Source: a virus
IMG/VR virus record: IMGVR_UViG_3300046002_007359
Coordinates: 1 to 20,558 of that record
DNA length: 20,558 nt
Strand: one strand, 5' to 3'
Below, piece after piece: positions 2,778 through 17,186 of this stretch (positions are counted from its first letter, which is position 1; each line of letters opens with the position of its first letter). Both the position numbers and the translations under genes were made by a program. The notes below the pieces were generated by a model. It saw only the letters and a list, made by a program, of their open reading frames with translations, did no database searches and was not told the DNA's origin.

Positions 2778-4808
2778 ATGGCAGAAACATTATTATCTCC
2801 AGGTGTATTAGCAAGAGAAAACGATTCATCATTTATTGGTGCTAGACCCGTAACCTATGGTGCGGCTATTATTGGACCTGCAGTAATGGGTCCTGTTAAT
2901 ATCCCAACAGCAGTATCTACATTTTCTCAATACGAAGCTATTTTTGGTGGCACAGTAGAAAGTGGATCCCAATTTTACACTTATTTAAATTCAATTGCAG
3001 CAAGAAATTATTTTGCTCAAGGGGGTGAATCTTTATTAATAACTAGAGTTGTTACAGGTTCATTCACAGAAGCAACTAGCTCAATCGGAAGTAAACGTAC
3101 CTCAGGTGCTATACTAGGTGGATTGAATGCTCTTTCATCTTCAATTGTTTCCTCTCCAAACATTACAGGTAGTACAGGTGGTACTTCAACTAACTTAGTT
3201 ACAACAACAAGTGGTGGTGGAACTGGAGCAATAGCAACCGTATCTGTAGCTCCACAAGCTAACACTGCTACCGTGTCAAATATTACAGCTGTAACATTTA
3301 CTTCACCAGGTTCAGGATATGCAGTAGGTGATACTATTACAATAGCATCCGCTTCATTAGGTGCTACAGAAGCAGGAGGAACTAATTTAAATTTCCTAGT
3401 AGAAGCTAGTGATTTAGCTTACACTTCATCTTTCACATTAAAAACAATTTCTGAAGGTGTAATTATGAACAACTCTCAAATAGTTGATGGTGCAAATGGA
3501 ACTTTAACAAGTGGTTCAAATTACAACATTAGATGGGAAGTAGCTTCAGTTAACACATCTTCAGGCCAATTTTCATTATTAATTAGAAGAGGTAACGATA
3601 CAAATAATCAAAAAGCAGTATTAGAAACTTATAATAACTTATCATTAGATCCAACAGCTGCTAATTATATTGGTAACGCAATTGGTGATACTTACTTTAC
3701 AGTAGAACAAGATGGTGTTGATACCTATGTTAAAACAAATGGTAACTATCCAAACAGAAGTGCTTACGTTTACGTAGAATCTGTTAATTTACCAACCCCA
3801 TCATATTTTGATAATGATGGTGTAGCTAAACCACAATTCACAGCTTCATTACCTCAAGTATCATCAGGTTCATTTGGTGGTGCTACAGGAACAAATTATG
3901 TAAATAATGATGCTAAATTTAACGAAAATATAACATCAACAAATACACAAGGTATTTCAGCTGCAAGTTATACTCAAGCAATTAGCTTACTTTCAAACTC
4001 TGATGATTATCAATTCAACGTAATTGCCGCTCCAGGTTTAATTAGTACTTTACATGCTTCCGCAGTTAACTCAATAGTTAGCTTAGCACAAGGAAGAACC
4101 GATTGTATCGCTGTAATTGATTTGGTACCGTATAATTCAACGATAAATACAGTAACAAACGCGGTATCAGCATATGATAGTTCATACGCAGCTACTTACT
4201 GGCCTTGGTTGCAAACATTAGATGCAGCAACAGGACAAACAGTTTGGGCACCAGCTTCAACTTATATCCCAGGAGTATATGCATTTACAGATGCTTCATC
4301 AGACCCATGGTTCGCACCTGCAGGTTTAATTAGAGGAGCTCTAGGAAGTGTAATTAGAGCTGAAAGAAAATTAACAGCTGGAAATAGAGATACATTATAC
4401 GAAGCAAATGTTAACCCAATTGCAACATTCCCAGGAACTGGTACTGTAGTATTTGGACAAAAAACATTACAGAAAAAAGCTTCTGCTTTAGATAGAGTAA
4501 ATGTAAGAAGATTATTAATCGCTCTTAAAGGATATATCAGTCAAGTATCTGATAACTTGGTATTTGAACAAAATACAATTGCTACAAGAAATAATTTCTT
4601 AAGCCAAGTTAACCCATACTTAGAATCAGTACAACAAAGACAAGGTTTGTATGCTTTCAAAGTAGTAATGGATGATACAAACAATACACCTGATGTAATT
4701 GATAGAAATGAATTAGTAGGTCAGATTTATTTACAACCAACTAAAACAGCAGAATTTATAATCCTAGACTTTAATGTACTTCCAACAGGAGCTACATTCC
4801 CAGGATAA
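2778..4808 (+). CDS. 18: Tail sheath protein, T4 gp18-like
   Basis: This is the subunit of the contractile sheath that surrounds the tail tube and shortens to drive it into the host. The 676-residue protein (T4 gp18: about 659) has the hallmark N-terminus LLSPGVLARENDSS (about 5-18), then an ARP..YGAAIIGPAVMGPVN strand and the RNYFAQGG..LLITRVV block (76-92). The conserved C-terminal sheath domain runs from about residue 564 (LQKKASALDRVNVRRLLIAL) to the end and includes FEQNT and a Y-A-F-K-V strand. The middle (about 131-560) is Ser/Thr/Gly-rich and variable, as expected for outward-facing domains; it carries a PGSGYAVGDTITI module at 177-189. Nineteen of its twenty arginine codons are AGA. 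It has its own promoter-like element and is followed by the tube gene. Confidence 0.95.
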   Translation: MAETLLSPGVLARENDSSFIGARPVTYGAAIIGPAVMGPVNIPTAVSTFSQYEAIFGGTVESGSQFYTYLNSIAARNYFAQGGESLLITRVVTGSFTEATSSIGSKRTSGAILGGLNALSSSIVSSPNITGSTGGTSTNLVTTTSGGGTGAIATVSVAPQANTATVSNITAVTFTSPGSGYAVGDTITIASASLGATEAGGTNLNFLVEASDLAYTSSFTLKTISEGVIMNNSQIVDGANGTLTSGSNYNIRWEVASVNTSSGQFSLLIRRGNDTNNQKAVLETYNNLSLDPTAANYIGNAIGDTYFTVEQDGVDTYVKTNGNYPNRSAYVYVESVNLPTPSYFDNDGVAKPQFTASLPQVSSGSFGGATGTNYVNNDAKFNENITSTNTQGISAASYTQAISLLSNSDDYQFNVIAAPGLISTLHASAVNSIVSLAQGRTDCIAVIDLVPYNSTINTVTNAVSAYDSSYAATYWPWLQTLDAATGQTVWAPASTYIPGVYAFTDASSDPWFAPAGLIRGALGSVIRAERKLTAGNRDTLYEANVNPIATFPGTGTVVFGQKTLQKKASALDRVNVRRLLIALKGYISQVSDNLVFEQNTIATRNNFLSQVNPYLESVQQRQGLYAFKVVMDDTNNTPDVIDRNELVGQIYLQPTKTAEFIILDFNVLPTGATFPG

Positions 4809-4857: not shown

Positions 4858-5346
4858 ATGGCAGTATTAGACCCAAACGAAATATTTTTTACAGCATTCG
4901 AACCAAAACAAAAGAATAGATTTATTCTTTATGTAGATGGGATTCCTTCATACCAAATTAAAGGTATGGGAGCTGTAACATTAACACAAGGTACAGTAGC
5001 TTTAAATCACATTAATGTTCAACGATTTGTAAAGGGTAAATCAACTTGGGGGACTATTCAAATGACTTTATTTGATCCAATCACTCCTTCAGGAGCTCAA
5101 GCCGTAATGGAATGGGTACGTTTACACCACGAATCTGTAACAGGTAGAGATGGATATAGTGATTTCTACAAAAAAGACCTTACATTAGATGTATTAGGAC
5201 CAGTAGGAGACATCGTATCTGAATGGATTATTAAAGGAGCAATTATCACAGAAGCCAATTTTGGTGATTATAACTGGGATACAGAAAACGCTGCTCAAGA
5301 ACTTACAGTAACAGTTCAACCTGATTATTGTATCTTAAACTTCTAA
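4858..5346 (+). CDS. 19: Tail tube protein, T4 gp19-like
   Basis: This is the major tube subunit that stacks in rings inside the sheath and conducts DNA during ejection. It has 162 residues, matching the family (T4 gp19: 163). Recognisable blocks are KQKNRFILYVDGIPSYQIKG (16-35), ALNHINVQRFVKGKSTWG (48-65) with the tube-family K.K...W pattern, IQMTLFDPITPSGAQAV (67-83) and the C-terminal EANFGDYNWD segment (about 132-141). The position after the sheath gene is canonical. It is flanked by an exact promoter-like element upstream and a strong terminator downstream, so it can be transcribed as a short separate message, which fits a protein needed in very high copy. The leader is A-rich (ACAAAATG) with no Shine-Dalgarno sequence. 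Confidence 0.95.
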   Translation: MAVLDPNEIFFTAFEPKQKNRFILYVDGIPSYQIKGMGAVTLTQGTVALNHINVQRFVKGKSTWGTIQMTLFDPITPSGAQAVMEWVRLHHESVTGRDGYSDFYKKDLTLDVLGPVGDIVSEWIIKGAIITEANFGDYNWDTENAAQELTVTVQPDYCILNF

Positions 5347-5376: not shown

Positions 5377-5402
5377 GCTTGGCTTCGGCCAAGCTTTTTT
5401 TT
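5377..5402 (+). terminator. Rho-independent terminator with UUCG loop
   Basis: A 7-bp perfect stem GCTTGGC/GCCAAGC (5377-5383 and 5388-5394) is closed by a TTCG tetraloop, with C-G as the closing pair, the most stable type. Eight T residues follow (5395-5402). It lies 30 bases after the tail tube stop codon and ends the sheath-tube transcripts. It is the only convincing intrinsic terminator I see in the window. Confidence 0.93.
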
Positions 5403-5449: not shown

Positions 5450-6178
5450 ATGGCCGAATTTAAGTTCCCTACTGAAGAAGTAGAATTGCCTTCAAGAGGA
5501 TTATTATATCCTAAAGAGTCTCCTTTATCAAAAGGTAAAGTAGAAATCAAATACATGACTGCTAAGGAAGAAGATATTTTAACTAACCAATCCTATATTC
5601 AAAATGGTACTGTGTTAGATAAATTATTACAATCTTTAATTGTAAATAAAGATATTAGTACTGATGATTTATTTGTAGGAGATAAAAATGCTTTATATAT
5701 CGCTGCTCGTATTTTAGGATATGGTAAAGAATATAATGTTAGAATAGCAGGTAAAGATCAAACAATTGATTTAACTACTTTAGAACCTAAAGAAATTGAC
5801 TTTTCTATATTAGAAAATGGAAAAAATGAATTTAGCTATGTATTAGAAAATACAGGTACAGTTTTAACTTTTAAATTACTTAATGGTAAAGATGAAAAAG
5901 CCATTGATAGAGAAGTAGCTGGATTAAAAAAATTAAATCCTTTAACTTCTAGTGAATTAACTACTCGTCTAAAACACATGATTACCTCAGTTGATGGTAA
6001 TGAAGAAAAAAAAGATATTAGAGATTTTGTAGATAACTACTTTCTAGCAAAAGATGCTAGAGCTTTTAGAGAGTATGTTAGAAATATTCAACCTGATATC
6101 AACATGAATGTTATTTTGGATAGTGGTGAGGAGGCTACTTTGCCTATTGGGCTTAACTTTTTTTGGCCTGACGCCTAA
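5450..6178 (+). CDS. Baseplate hub / tail assembly chaperone-like protein, T4 gp26 family
   Basis: The 242-residue protein has the pattern of the T4-type baseplate protein family that includes gp26. An N-terminal VELPSRGLLYP (about 11-21) is followed by KYMTAKEEDIL (34-44), a helical VLDKLLQSLI stretch (about 55-64) and LYIAARILGYG (82-92). The C-terminal half is charged and helical (DIRDFVDNYFLAKDARAFREYV) and ends in LPIGLNFFWPDA. It has no Cys. The gene lies between tail tube and tape measure, the slot that in many tailed phages holds the tail assembly chaperone pair made by ribosomal frameshifting. A second open frame continues past its stop in the +1 register with family-like sequence, after a run of seven T at 6158-6164. 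Function could therefore be hub component, tape-measure chaperone, or both; the sequence does not decide. Confidence 0.7.
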   Translation: MAEFKFPTEEVELPSRGLLYPKESPLSKGKVEIKYMTAKEEDILTNQSYIQNGTVLDKLLQSLIVNKDISTDDLFVGDKNALYIAARILGYGKEYNVRIAGKDQTIDLTTLEPKEIDFSILENGKNEFSYVLENTGTVLTFKLLNGKDEKAIDREVAGLKKLNPLTSSELTTRLKHMITSVDGNEEKKDIRDFVDNYFLAKDARAFREYVRNIQPDINMNVILDSGEEATLPIGLNFFWPDA

Positions 6179-6464
6179 TTCCGCTCCCGAGTTCCGAAAA
6201 TCTTTATTTTCACAAATCCATAGTATAGTATTCCATGGAAAAGGTGGATATGATTTTGGTACTATATACAATATGCCCATTTGGTTGCGTAAATTTACCT
6301 TATTTGAAATGAATAATTTCTATACCGACCAAAATGAACAAAGAGAAAAATCCAATAAAGGTAATAAAAATGCTACCAATATGGTTAATTCCGATGGTAC
6401 AGTTAATACCCCTGCTTTTTTAGCTGCCTCTAAGCAATACAAAGGTAAAACAGATTATAAGTAA
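6108..6464 (+). CDS. Frame-shifted continuation of the gp26-like gene (likely +1/-2 product)
   Basis: This frame is open from the ATG at 6108, but its first about 23 codons lie over the end of the gp26-like gene and look like a shadow of it. The protein-like part starts near 6177 and runs PEFRKSLFSQIHSIVFHGKG, then GGYDFGTIYNMPIWLRKFTL, then a polar Asn/Lys-rich tail of about 45 residues (about 96 residues in all). No ATG, GTG or TTG is in frame between 6150 and the ATG at 6272, which falls in the middle of that block, and there is no ribosome site. The register is +1 (equivalently -2) relative to the upstream gene. It is therefore best read as the C-terminal extension of the upstream protein, reached by frameshifting at the T run or at the GCC-TAA stop, or as the result of an indel. 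Separate translation by coupling is the alternative. Confidence 0.6.
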   Translation: MLFWIVVRRLLCLLGLTFFGLTPNSAPEFRKSLFSQIHSIVFHGKGGYDFGTIYNMPIWLRKFTLFEMNNFYTDQNEQREKSNKGNKNATNMVNSDGTVNTPAFLAASKQYKGKTDYK

Positions 6465-6488: not shown

Positions 6489-8885
6489 ATGGCTTTAGAT
6501 CCTCAAAAAGACTTAAAAACAATACAGCAACTTAATGCTGAAATTGATTCTCTTTATAAAAGATTAGGGAGGCAAGATACTCCTCCTATCTTTGATGCTG
6601 CTAAAATAGGATCTGCTCGAAGAGAGATTAAAAAATTAAATGAGGATTTAGATGATGTAAATAATTCACTTACCTTTATTTCTAAATCTTTTAGAGACAG
6701 TATAGCAGAACTATCTAAACAAAACACCGAATTAGGATTTGCTAAGAAATCTCTTAGAAGTATTGAATCCATTGCTCGTAATATAGCTTATGAAAATTCA
6801 CAAGGATTATTAATAAGCGATAAAACCCTAAATTCTTTAGAAAAAAAAGCAAAAATAGAATACCAAAGTTTGCAAATTGCTATAGATAGCGGTAGAATAA
6901 AAGGAAAAGAATTAAAAGAATTTAAAGATAACCTTGCAACTCAAGAGGAATTTTTAAAAACAATGGAAAAAATCCGTAACCAAACTAAAATGGTTAAGGA
7001 TGATTTAGGTACTAAAACATTTGCATTTTTTGATGATTTAACCTCTAAAATACCAGGCTTAGCGGCATTATCAGAACCGTTTAAAGCTGCAAGAGAAGAA
7101 GCAGAAAGAGCAGGTAAAGCTAATGTTAACTTATTTGGGCAAGCAAAACCACTACAGAAAAAACAACTTGAAGCTTTAGAAAAAGCTGCTAAAACCGGTA
7201 AAGGTCTTACACAAGATAAAGTTAAAGAATTAGGATTAGAAAAATTATTAACTTCTCAATCTGGAAAAACTTTATCAGGTAAAGTTGCATCACAAAAAGC
7301 AGGTAAATTATTAGGAAGTGCTGCCTCTGCAGCAGGTCAAAGTGCTGTATCTCCTCTAATGGCTGGTTTAAAATCTATAGGCCCCGCAATATCGGGTATG
7401 CTTAAAAAAGTATTAGGCCCTATTGGTTTACTTATGGAGTTATTTGAAGCAATTAAAGCATCAGATGCAGCTGTAGCTGATATGGCTAAGAATTTCGGTA
7501 TGACTTATAATGAGGCCAGAGATTTAAAATCTGAAATGACCTCTGTTGCTACTTCTTCAGGTGATATTTTTGTTACTTCAAAAGGTGTTTTAGAAACTTT
7601 TACTGCTATTAATGGTGCTTTAGGTACTAATGCTATGTTAAGTGATGAAATGTCTATTTCTTTTACTAAATTAAGAGAAAAAGCTGGTTTTACTAATGAA
7701 GAATTACAAGGTATAGCTAGAATTCAATTAGGTACTAAAAATACTACTGAAGATATTACAGGTCAATTTTTAGCTCAAGCAAAAGTTTCATCACTTAAAA
7801 ATGGTGTTATAATGAATGAGCAAAAAATGCTTAAAGAAATAGGAAAAGTTTCCGCTGCAACTACTTTATCATTAGGTAAAAACCCAGGATTAATAGGACA
7901 AGCAGTAGCTACAGCAAAATCTTTAGGTATGGAATTATCTCAAGTAGATGCTATAGCTGGAAGTTTACTTGATTTTGAATCATCTATTGAAAATGAATTA
8001 TCAGCTGAATTATTATTAAATAAAGATCTTAATTTAGAAAAAGCTAGACAAGCAGCTTTAAATAATGATTTAGCTACAGTTGCTGAAGAAATAGCAAATC
8101 AAGTAGGTTCATCTGCTGAATTTGCTGAAATGAATAGAATCCAACAAGAAGCATTAGCTAAATCTGTTGGTATGTCTAGAGAAGATTTAGCCGAAACTTT
8201 AATACTTCAAGATCAATTAAAAGGATTAACTGCTGAACAAGCTGCTGAAGAGACTAAAAAATTTGAACAATTAAAAGGTCAAGTAGGAGAACAAGAAGCA
8301 ATGAGAATTCTTCAAGAACAAGGAGTTGAAGGTTTAGATAAACAAGTTGGGATGGCTGATAAGATGAATGCCCAAATGGAAAAATTAAAAGAAATTTTTG
8401 TTATCGTAGGTGAAGCTTTAATGCCTATTTTAGATATATTTGTTAGTATTTTTGATGTTATAGGTCCTATAATGAAATTATTAGACCCTATGATACAAAC
8501 TGTATTAGTAGGTGTTGCTGCTATAACAGATTTAGTTAAAGGTATTATGTATGTACTTTCTCTAGGTAACATGGAATTTGGAGAAAGCGCTACCAAAAAA
8601 CAAATTCAAAAAGCAGAAGCTTCATCCCAGAAAAACTACGGAGTTAGTGGAGATGCTTTTGGAGAAGATAAAAGTATTAGAAACCGTGCAGAAATGGCTT
8701 CAGGTGGTATAGTAACAGGACCAACTAATGCACTTGTAGGTGAAGCAGGACCAGAAGCAGTTATACCATTATCGAGTAATTCACCACAAATTAAAGTAGA
8801 CAACTCAGAAACAAATGCATTATTAAAACAATTAATTAGAAAAACACCTGAAATGGCTCCTTTAGGGTTGTATGAGGTACAATAA
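6489..8885 (+). CDS. Tail tape measure protein
   Basis: This 798-residue protein is predicted to set tail length and to be ejected ahead of the DNA (the role of T4 gp29). Residues 1-190 are charged and helical with coiled-coil character, containing many KxLE/ExxK repeats. An Ala/Gly/Leu-rich segment follows at about 280-325 (LGPIGLLMELFEAI), then a long helical region, and a strongly hydrophobic segment at about 636-695 that could span a membrane. The C-terminus carries the tape-measure signature ASGGIVTGPTNALVGEAGPE, followed by AVIPL (about 736-762). There is no Cys. Length and position (after the tube and chaperone-like genes, before the baseplate genes) fit well. It has its own promoter-like element immediately upstream. 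An embedded lytic domain was looked for and not seen. Confidence 0.88.
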   Translation: MALDPQKDLKTIQQLNAEIDSLYKRLGRQDTPPIFDAAKIGSARREIKKLNEDLDDVNNSLTFISKSFRDSIAELSKQNTELGFAKKSLRSIESIARNIAYENSQGLLISDKTLNSLEKKAKIEYQSLQIAIDSGRIKGKELKEFKDNLATQEEFLKTMEKIRNQTKMVKDDLGTKTFAFFDDLTSKIPGLAALSEPFKAAREEAERAGKANVNLFGQAKPLQKKQLEALEKAAKTGKGLTQDKVKELGLEKLLTSQSGKTLSGKVASQKAGKLLGSAASAAGQSAVSPLMAGLKSIGPAISGMLKKVLGPIGLLMELFEAIKASDAAVADMAKNFGMTYNEARDLKSEMTSVATSSGDIFVTSKGVLETFTAINGALGTNAMLSDEMSISFTKLREKAGFTNEELQGIARIQLGTKNTTEDITGQFLAQAKVSSLKNGVIMNEQKMLKEIGKVSAATTLSLGKNPGLIGQAVATAKSLGMELSQVDAIAGSLLDFESSIENELSAELLLNKDLNLEKARQAALNNDLATVAEEIANQVGSSAEFAEMNRIQQEALAKSVGMSREDLAETLILQDQLKGLTAEQAAEETKKFEQLKGQVGEQEAMRILQEQGVEGLDKQVGMADKMNAQMEKLKEIFVIVGEALMPILDIFVSIFDVIGPIMKLLDPMIQTVLVGVAAITDLVKGIMYVLSLGNMEFGESATKKQIQKAEASSQKNYGVSGDAFGEDKSIRNRAEMASGGIVTGPTNALVGEAGPEAVIPLSSNSPQIKVDNSETNALLKQLIRKTPEMAPLGLYEVQ

Positions 8886-15869: not shown

Positions 15870-15900
15870 TTGGTTTATTCAAAATAAGTTCGTATATTGA
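15870..15900 (+). promoter_or_regulatory. Candidate host-type (-33/-7) promoter for the polymerase gene
   Basis: TTGG at 15870-15873 and TATATTGA at 15893-15900 are separated by 19 bases, preceded at the -7 side by TTCG. The Bacteroidota consensus is TTTG with TAnnTTTG at a similar spacing. The same arrangement occurs before the gp32-like gene. Transcription would start near 15907, supporting the ATG at 15915 over the TTG at 15897, which lies inside the -7 box. Confidence 0.55.
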
Positions 15901-15914
15901 TCCAAAAAGGTTAT

Positions 15915-17186
15915 ATGTATTGGCTTATAGAAAACGAGGAACAATTAGGGTTTTTAATAAATAGTGGTTATAAAGAAGCATTTGTTGAAGTAATCCCATT
16001 TAATGATAACATACACCCGGTATTAAACGACGTAAGTTTGGTGTATATTAGACCAATTTACGCATCTAAAGGTTATATGGTGGGCGTTATGCATAGCGAA
16101 ACTTTAAATGAGTTAAACACGTGTGTTACCGAACTACTAAAGAATTTTGATATACTATATTGTCGAGATAAAAAGGAAATATTACATTATTTTCAACTAA
16201 ATTCTTTCTTTGACATCACCCCACCCCCTACTCCGTATATACGACCTACCACACAAACACACGAATTATTCTATAGACAACATGGTGATAATCCGGATAT
16301 AAATTTAATTATACCGATTGTTAAACACTATGAATTGTGTGAAAATATTTTTGAAGATCTAAAAGCGAATATAAACAAACCAAAAACAAGTTATGATGAA
16401 TTCTTTAACAGTAAAACCTCAATGGTGTTCAACGCCATCGAGAGAAATGGAATACGTGTACACATTCCTACCTTCCAAGAGTATTTCCACCCCATTGATA
16501 GTGAATACACTTACACTCAGTACAACCTCAAAACTACCACAACAAGACCTTCAAACAAATTTAAAAACGTAAATTATGCAGCACTCAACAAAGAAAATGG
16601 ATGTAGGAAAAGCTTTATACCGCGTAATGGAAGGTTTGTGGAAATTGATATTTCTGCTTACCATCCTAGCTTGGCTGCTCGCCTCATTGGTTATAATTTT
16701 ACCACTAGCGATATTCACGCTCATTTCGCTACCCTTTATAATGTTGATTACCAAAAATCGAAAGAACTTACTTTTAAACAGCTATATGGAGGTGTATTTG
16801 AGAATTATAAACATCTGGAATTCTTTCAAAAAGTAGAAAAGTATGTTAAAGAAAACTGGAAATTATTTGAGAATGAAGGATACATAAAGTGTCCGGTATC
16901 GAATTTTGTATATACGAAGGAAGGGTTAGGGGATATGAATCCGCAAAAACTGTTTAATTATGTGCTACAAAATTTGGAGACGTCAATGAACGTTCGTATA
17001 TTATGGGATATGATAAGGATATTGAGGGGGAAAAAGACAAAGCTAGTCTTATATACTTATGATTCATTTTTATTAGATATAGAGGAAGATGAGATAGAAG
17101 TTTTAGAGGAAATTAGAACTGTATTCAAAAATTATAAATTTAACATTAAAGAAAAAACAGGTTATGATTACAGTTTTGCAGAATGA
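15915..17186 (+). CDS. Divergent, short superfamily-A DNA polymerase
   Basis: This 423-residue protein has a catalytic core like family A polymerases. TTTTRPSNKFKNVNYAAL (about 207-224, Arg211) matches the TGRLSS...NLQNIP region; VEIDISAYHPSLAARLIGY is motif A with Asp245; DIHAHFATLYNV and KSKELTFKQLYGG (281-293) correspond to the O-helix motif B; LVLYTYDSFLLDI is motif C with Asp383. Motif A has HPS where Pol I has ELR, and motif C reads YDSF instead of HDE, closer to the HDSF of T7-type RNA polymerases. The first about 160 residues show no convincing 3'-5' exonuclease motifs. Bacterial Pol I is more than twice as long. Use as replicative, primase-like or repair polymerase is open. The codon choice differs from the tail genes. 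The ATG at 15915 is preferred over the in-frame TTG at 15897. Confidence 0.68.
   Translation: MYWLIENEEQLGFLINSGYKEAFVEVIPFNDNIHPVLNDVSLVYIRPIYASKGYMVGVMHSETLNELNTCVTELLKNFDILYCRDKKEILHYFQLNSFFDITPPPTPYIRPTTQTHELFYRQHGDNPDINLIIPIVKHYELCENIFEDLKANINKPKTSYDEFFNSKTSMVFNAIERNGIRVHIPTFQEYFHPIDSEYTYTQYNLKTTTTRPSNKFKNVNYAALNKENGCRKSFIPRNGRFVEIDISAYHPSLAARLIGYNFTTSDIHAHFATLYNVDYQKSKELTFKQLYGGVFENYKHLEFFQKVEKYVKENWKLFENEGYIKCPVSNFVYTKEGLGDMNPQKLFNYVLQNLETSMNVRILWDMIRILRGKKTKLVLYTYDSFLLDIEEDEIEVLEEIRTVFKNYKFNIKEKTGYDYSFAE

Follow-up and report, generated by a model that had tools for sequence, protein, structure and literature searches.

The window analysed here, i.e. the whole stretch of DNA under study, is a 20.6-kb IMG/VR virus record, in which the genes and signals relevant to this work are arranged as follows.

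2778-4808: tail sheath gene, upstream of the tail tube gene
4858-5346, + strand: tail tube gene, the upstream neighbour (phrog_4542 tail tube, E=5.7e-23)
5450-6178, + strand: ORF1, predicted short form (TAC-N) of the gp26/gp51 family, 242 aa
6128-6134, + strand: GAGGAGG purine tract, Shine-Dalgarno-like, a candidate upstream stimulator
6155-6157, + strand: AAC codon before the T run, which keeps the run at seven T and avoids the -1 heptamer T_TTT_TTT
6158-6164, + strand: putative U7 slip site, with TTT at 6158-6160, TTT at 6161-6163 (P site) and the last T plus GG at 6164-6166 (A site)
6165-6464, + strand: ORF2, 99 aa, the predicted C-terminal part (TAC-C) of the long form, which ribosomes would reach only by a +1 shift
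6167-6169, + strand: invariant CCT, which fixes Leu (CTN) in the +1 frame directly after the putative slip
6176-6178, + strand: TAA, the 0-frame stop of ORF1, outside the signal
6489-8885, + strand: tape measure-like protein, 798 aa, the downstream neighbour

The name given to the gene at 6489-8885 is based on its position and length; its product also displays a weak match to the tape measure family phrog_23574 (E=0.017), and homologues occupying the same slot are annotated as tape measure proteins in the phages immuto, SP-15 and LIS04. Both in the window and in its relatives ORF1 and ORF2 are sited between the tail tube gene and the tape measure-like gene, which is the location expected of tail-assembly chaperone (TAC) genes, and the proposal of the initial annotation that this slot produces such chaperones was in this respect borne out. 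The gap between the tube gene and ORF1 holds an intrinsic terminator (5377-5402, GCTTGGC-TTCG-GCCAAGC followed by eight T), and a terminator is annotated in the same gap of Bacillus phage SP-15. Such an element could lower the transcription of the chaperone and tape measure genes relative to that of the tube gene.

The last codons of ORF1 are GGG CTT AAC TTT TTT TGG CCT GAC GCC TAA. From the end of the T run the +1 frame reads GLTPNSAPEFRKSLF...YNMPIWLRKF... and closes with a TAA stop at 6462-6464. Accordingly, the initial annotation had correctly described the end of ORF1 (...NFFWPDA, stop at 6178), the run of seven T at 6158-6164 and a second frame open in the +1 register to 6464; its statement that no start codon precedes the conserved core is wrong for the window, where the +1 frame has an ATG at 6108, within ORF1, a codon that is not conserved among the relatives.

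Conservation of the frame relation and of the putative slip site

Homologues were gathered from IMG/VR, GTDB genomes and phage records, and reduced to a non-redundant set of 125 loci (<95% identity) with enough sequence downstream. ORF2 lies in the +1 register in 121/125 of these loci, among which locus L152 was assigned by its motif, its longer open frame being a different one, and 101/125 carry the exact site TTT TTT TGG CCT. The remaining 20 +1 loci include 16 with a recognised variant of the site; the sites other than TTT TTT TGG CCT comprise TTC TTT TGG (7), CTT TTT TGG (3), TTT TTT TAC (2) and single variants. The split in two frames, for which the initial annotation had advised a comparison of related genomes, is thus conserved in these loci, and the conserved +1 overlap (121/125 loci) agrees at the sequence level with the two overlapping frames typical of TAC genes, whose products are here predicted. 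The same arrangement is found in the isolates immuto, Mel-JY01, SP-15, LIS04, GXN1 and RM378. Rhodothermus phage RM378 has TTT TTT TGG and a second ORF in +1, but this ORF is without the usual core motif, and the genes downstream are arranged differently, the tube gene following the second ORF on the opposite strand.

The ORF2 frame is itself maintained as a coding sequence. In 35 related pairs, which are not independent of each other, substitutions at codon positions 1/2/3 of the +1 frame amounted to 218/101/522, a coding-type pattern, and a conserved GL..YNMPIWLR core was identified in 57 loci. No ATG is available ahead of this core in the ORF2 frame in 66/121 of the +1 loci, and in 38/121 the available frame has neither ATG nor GTG nor TTG. 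Furthermore, 43/113 loci have a +1-frame stop no more than 12 nt upstream of the T run, so that in them the shift would fall between that stop and the stop of ORF1, within the run or a few codons behind it.

The site is also a specific mark of this locus. The word TTTTTTTGGCCT occurs once in the window, against 0.01 occurrences expected, and a scan of IMG/VR with the 16-mer CTTTTTTTGGCCTGAC, blind to protein, recovered at least 120 loci. Among the matches listed, 120/120 are found in the last part of a gp26-like ORF, identified by profile, and 119/120 are followed by ORF2-like sequence in +1, the last one being cut by the contig end, whereas the permuted control 16-mer matched IMG/VR as a whole at 6 places, 0/6 of them in a gp26-like ORF. 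Among these listed matches the TTT TTT TGG CCT region is specific to the gp26-like locus; since the profiles derive from the relatives gathered beforehand, this result speaks for the specificity of the motif and not for an independent sampling of the family.

Codon choice around the site is strongly biased, in agreement with the remark of the initial annotation on atypical codons near the switch. The proline following TGG is encoded by CCT in 112/113 loci (36/37 after thinning to 70% identity), as compared with 30% of the proline codons elsewhere in the same genes. Read one base later, this frame-0 CCT yields GGC CTN, i.e. Gly-Leu, and because it fixes these residues the +1 frame must be under selection straight after the T run, which would place the shift at or before UGG. 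Likewise, the asparagine preceding the run is encoded by AAC in 39/39 cases, compared with 28% elsewhere, the run is of exactly seven T in 100/113 loci, and the base before it is C or G in 102/113 loci, compared with 27% before other phenylalanine codons. A T in that place would create T_TTT_TTT, the classical -1 heptamer, and consequently the C or G found there may protect the direction of the shift; the concurrent avoidance of A is not explained in this way.

Further upstream, a Shine-Dalgarno-like word is present within 60 nt of the site in 100/113 loci as against 131/1260 control windows, and in the clade of the window a GAG GAG pair is nearly fixed, although GAG accounts for 81/764 glutamate codons elsewhere (about 11%). 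This purine tract is kept in most relatives at a varying distance, which from the P site amounts to at least some 25 nt and is thus beyond the reach of ordinary Shine-Dalgarno stimulation. Judging from its conservation the tract is possibly a stimulator of the shift, a candidate for which there is no convincing mechanism. GAGGAGG was also considered as the signal of an independent internal start, and rejected, because the +1 frame has no conserved start codon at a suitable spacing from it. Downstream of the site, in the intervals 0-60 and 12-72 nt, no conserved RNA structure was seen (mean z near 0 in comparison with synonymous shuffles). Just before the site a hairpin gave z -1.7 in the clade of the window and -0.5 in the wider set, and this small element is a candidate helper, supported only in the near clade.

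Possible origins of the +1 register

Taken as a whole, these data make it highly probable that ORF1 and ORF2 constitute one tail-assembly chaperone gene from which a programmed +1 ribosomal frameshift gives rise to a short and a long form. Most ribosomes would read ORF1 to its stop and release the 242-aa short form, while a minority would pause at the point where the P site holds the Phe-tRNA paired with UUU (6161-6163) and the A site presents UGG. This Phe-tRNA would then slip +1 onto UUU (6162-6164), with GGC as the next codon, and translation would run on through ORF2 to produce a 337-aa long form (residues 1-238 plus 99). By analogy with gpG/gpGT of lambda, the short form would coat the tape measure protein, and the long form would recruit tail tube subunits through its C-terminal part; a chaperone function of the predicted products is suggested by the same analogy. 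That the event takes place on the ribosome, together with its direction, its efficiency and its product, is what we infer from the comparison of sequences. The junction at the T run, as proposed in the initial annotation, is supported by the frame conservation (121/125) and the 101 identical sites, and at these sites and their variants the P-site codon is able to re-pair after a +1 slip (UUU_U, CUU_U or UUU_C).

The same register would result from a programmed -2 shift on U7, as in phage Mu, which would add one extra phenylalanine to the long form. In the window and at the 101 U7 loci the re-pairing is perfect (T4-6 to T2-4) and the two directions are indistinguishable, and the prevalence of exactly seven T (100/113) also fits such a slip. 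Nevertheless, re-pairing two bases upstream holds only at U7 sites, and the +1 register persists where it fails, at TTC TTT TGG (7 non-redundant loci), TTT CTT TGG, TTC TTT CGT and AAC TTT CTA. Sites compatible with +1 re-pairing only were found as TTC TTT TGG in L091-L105, TTT CTT TGG in Flavobacterium phage immuto, TTC TTT CGT in Streptococcus phage GXN1, TTT TTT CGT in L112 and TTT CTA in LR756508; after a +1 slip the tRNA would move from UUU to UUU or UUC, or from CUU to UUU, the latter being the case of RF2. Because the variant sites keep only the +1 re-pairing, we favour +1 over -2, in a comparative argument that assumes a single mechanism across the whole family, and one mechanism for all sites needs +1. 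A -2 shift is consequently regarded as unlikely, and while the initial annotation was right in seeing a variant among T4-like phages, the "+1/-2" it had proposed is narrowed to +1, the -2 part being at odds with the variant sites.

Some observations count against the +1 reading. The A-site codon is UGG in most sites, and we know of no indication that this codon is rare in the hosts. The site of LIS04 is TTT TTT AGT, where the slip would need the first TTT, the ORF2 of RM378 is devoid of the usual core, and in this one phage, judged by its own sequence, translation might be initiated at the ATG at 6108.

Slippage of the RNA polymerase would place the event in the transcript, part of the mRNA having lost one T or gained two, and every species being read normally. 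This process classically requires a homopolymeric T run, and the run length is nearly fixed at seven, but the register is kept with a run of only 3-4 T (TTC TTT TGG, CTT TGG, TTC TTT CGT), and the conserved codon context (CCT, AAC) is not needed by a slipping polymerase, which renders this origin very improbable.

To a similar degree we doubt that ORF2 is a separate gene, translated from a start of its own or by reinitiation after the ORF1 stop. The in-frame ATG at 6108 in the window is in favour of this view, and so are the loci L102 and L106, in which ORF2 forms its own gene and starts with an ATG directly behind the stop of ORF1; such homologues with a separate start, which the initial annotation had named as evidence that would refute the joining of the two frames, do therefore exist. 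However, both loci are without the slip site (TTC TTG TAT; TTC CTT TGG CCA) and both are nested beside immuto within the frameshifting clade (98/98 support), and since the site was lost inside that clade they act as natural controls rather than as counterexamples. In addition, a separate gene is contradicted by the missing starts (no ATG in 66/121 loci; no ATG, GTG or TTG in 38/121) and by the constraint on the +1 frame, which begins right after the T run, with CCT, upstream of any usable start.

The remaining alternatives are weaker. A shift at the stop codon itself, GCC_TAA, in the manner of SPP1 gp17.1* (CCC_UAA), had been named as an alternative slip site in the initial annotation, and a stop in the A site does commonly promote +1 shifts (prfB, SPP1 gp17.1*); but the ORF1 stop varies (TAA 58, TGA 37, TAG 18), its distance from the run ranges from 15 to 36 nt, the codon before it is one of many, GCC to CCT re-pairing is poor and the +1 Gly-Leu is conserved upstream of the stop. 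As stop codon, neighbour and distance all vary, GCC-TAA was excluded as the site, and a shift there is hardly credible. Homopolymer runs are error-prone, but a sequencing or assembly indel splitting one gene, which the initial annotation held to be the main competing explanation, has a negligible probability, for hundreds of independent contigs share the arrangement: the two frames stand in the same relation in 121 non-redundant loci, which come from many metagenomes and from isolates and include sites without a long homopolymer.

Protein family and known chaperone systems

ORF1 matches both profiles of the T4 gp26/gp51 family, phrog_150 ("baseplate hub") with E=2.3e-9 and PF12322 with E=2.4e-4 and 21.3 bits, just below the curated cut-off of 24.5; the relatives GXN1 and LIS04 reach 89.1 and 85.6 bits, respectively, with PF12322. 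The same two profiles are also matched by T4 gp26 and T4 gp51, with gp51 spanning positions 13-280 of the 282 in the profile and gp26 ending at 235. Moreover, the ORF1 protein of GXN1 matches KVP40 gp26 directly (E=4e-4), and the annotation of KVP40 describes the short ORF that follows gp26 as resembling the gp51 C-terminus. Based on the longer profile cover of gp51, the match between GXN1 and KVP40 and the KVP40 annotation, ORF1 is likely the counterpart of gp26, and the joined product that of gp51. The ORF2 profile aligns weakly with the C-terminus of gp51 (probability 12%, P 0.0024), outscoring each of 200 column shuffles, though narrowly, and the Gram-positive ORF2s match the alignment A7 in hhalign, with no shared rows, at a probability of 96% (E 6e-9, 0/200 shuffles). 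A single-sequence profile comparison with T4 gp26 and gp51 was uninformative.

With respect to structure, among the PDB matches of the AlphaFold2 model of ORF1 (pLDDT 91.9) the highest probability is that of the HK97 tail assembly chaperone gp13 (2OB9), a weak match (0.63, TMt 0.47, E 0.57), and YqbN (3KLU) is also among the matches (E 2.1). ORF2 is predicted to adopt a three-helix fold (pLDDT 83.6), for which a fold search returned no significant match. A sequence search of solved structures found no relative.

Frameshifting in tail chaperone genes is the best-conserved recoding event in phages. In lambda, G/GT produces a short and a frameshift-extended long form, as is predicted for the window, between the tube and tape measure genes, but lambda shifts -1, whereas the register of the window is +1 at UUU_UGG, and no sequence similarity between the proteins of the window and lambda-type TACs is detectable. 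The long form of Mu gp41/gp42 is obtained in the same register (+1 equals -2) by a shift reported as -2 (PMC5009743), in contrast to the variant sites of the present family, which allow +1 only. The same source records -1, -2 and +1 shifts in the tail chaperones of different phages, with T4 as the exception, and describes that of the haloarchaeal myovirus HSTV-2 as "very likely +1" (PMC5009743); HSTV-2 would share its predicted direction with the locus of the window. A +1 shift at UUU_CGU was demonstrated by mass spectrometry for PA-X of influenza A (PMC3498833), and this very site is carried by GXN1 (L085) and L112, where a P-site UUU would slip +1 as in PA-X; PA-X, however, belongs to a eukaryotic virus, and most sites in the family of the window are UUU_UGG.

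T4 gp26 and gp51 belong to the same family as ORF1, but T4 has two paralogous genes on opposite strands, without frameshift, and the extra C-terminus of gp51 aligns weakly with ORF2. Some T4-like phages are stated not to use frameshifting but to carry two genes, a short one and a long fusion (PMC10885494, in a passage citing Vladimirov 2022). In KVP40 (gp26 and KVP40.0327) and in the cyanophage S-SM2 (gp26 and SSM2_011), gp26 is followed by a short ORF similar to the gp51 C-terminus, before a large gene, an order resembling that of the window; there the second ORF lies in -1 behind a canonical T_TTT_TTC heptamer, whereas in the window it lies in +1. Poly-T signals for -1 shifts are known in T4-like TAC-N genes (PMC12846349).

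Possible evolution of the two predicted forms

The -1 arrangement was found in KVP40, S-SM2, C48C1, XacN1, Atu_ph07, LR756511 and L090 (L086, L090 and L339-L343, one being an IMG/VR contig), whose ORF1 ends with T_TTT_TTC or T_TTT_TTT (T_TTT_TTY); it is the arrangement of KVP40, cyanophages and jumbo phages. KVP40 and LR756511 have an ATG at the ORF1 stop as well, and a coupled translation of their second ORF is possible. When the four strategies are mapped on a tree of ORF1, 5 changes are needed, compared with a mean of 10.6 for shuffled assignments; the deep order of this tree is unreliable on account of its long branches. Within it L102 and L106 group with immuto (98/98), whose site is already CTT TGG, and, as read from their sequences, the loss of the predicted site in these two loci goes together with the gain of a start.

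Although with less confidence than for the frameshift itself, we consider it rather probable that one chaperone family has reached two forms in three ways, namely a -1 shift at T_TTT_TTY, a +1 shift at UUU_UGG or UUU_C and the duplication seen in T4, and that a fourth, the separate ORF2, arose within the +1 clade. Whether ribosomes slip -1 or +1 would then depend on a few bases flanking the same Phe-Phe codons: a T ahead of the run would produce a -1 heptamer, and a C or G in that place, together with TGG behind the run, would lead to +1. UUU_UGG would represent a new and very widespread class of +1 sites in bacterial phages, possibly helped by the upstream purine tract and hairpin. The clade using it appears to be a large, mostly uncultured group of T4-related phages. 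The locus ties T4 gp26 and gp51 to relatives that would use frameshifting, and suggests that the direction of the shift changed inside one family; it supplies hundreds of natural variants of one site and opens to test the question of which bases decide between a +1 and a -1 slip on a U run.

In the literature examined we found no account of a +1 site for the gp26 family; Vladimirov 2022 (Virology 566:9-15) is represented there by its title and by second-hand statements, and for that reason part of the finding may already have been published. The GenBank records of immuto, SP-15, Mel-JY01 and LIS04 mark no frameshift; ORF2 is annotated in the first three as an independent, often truncated, hypothetical protein and in LIS04 is unannotated, so that the annotation of the second part is corrected here for all of them. 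Elsewhere in the window, a 429-aa ORF with a TTG start (15897-17186) weakly resembles the C-terminal region of phrog_17, a family of phage DNA polymerases (E 3e-4), which suggests a short or split polymerase.
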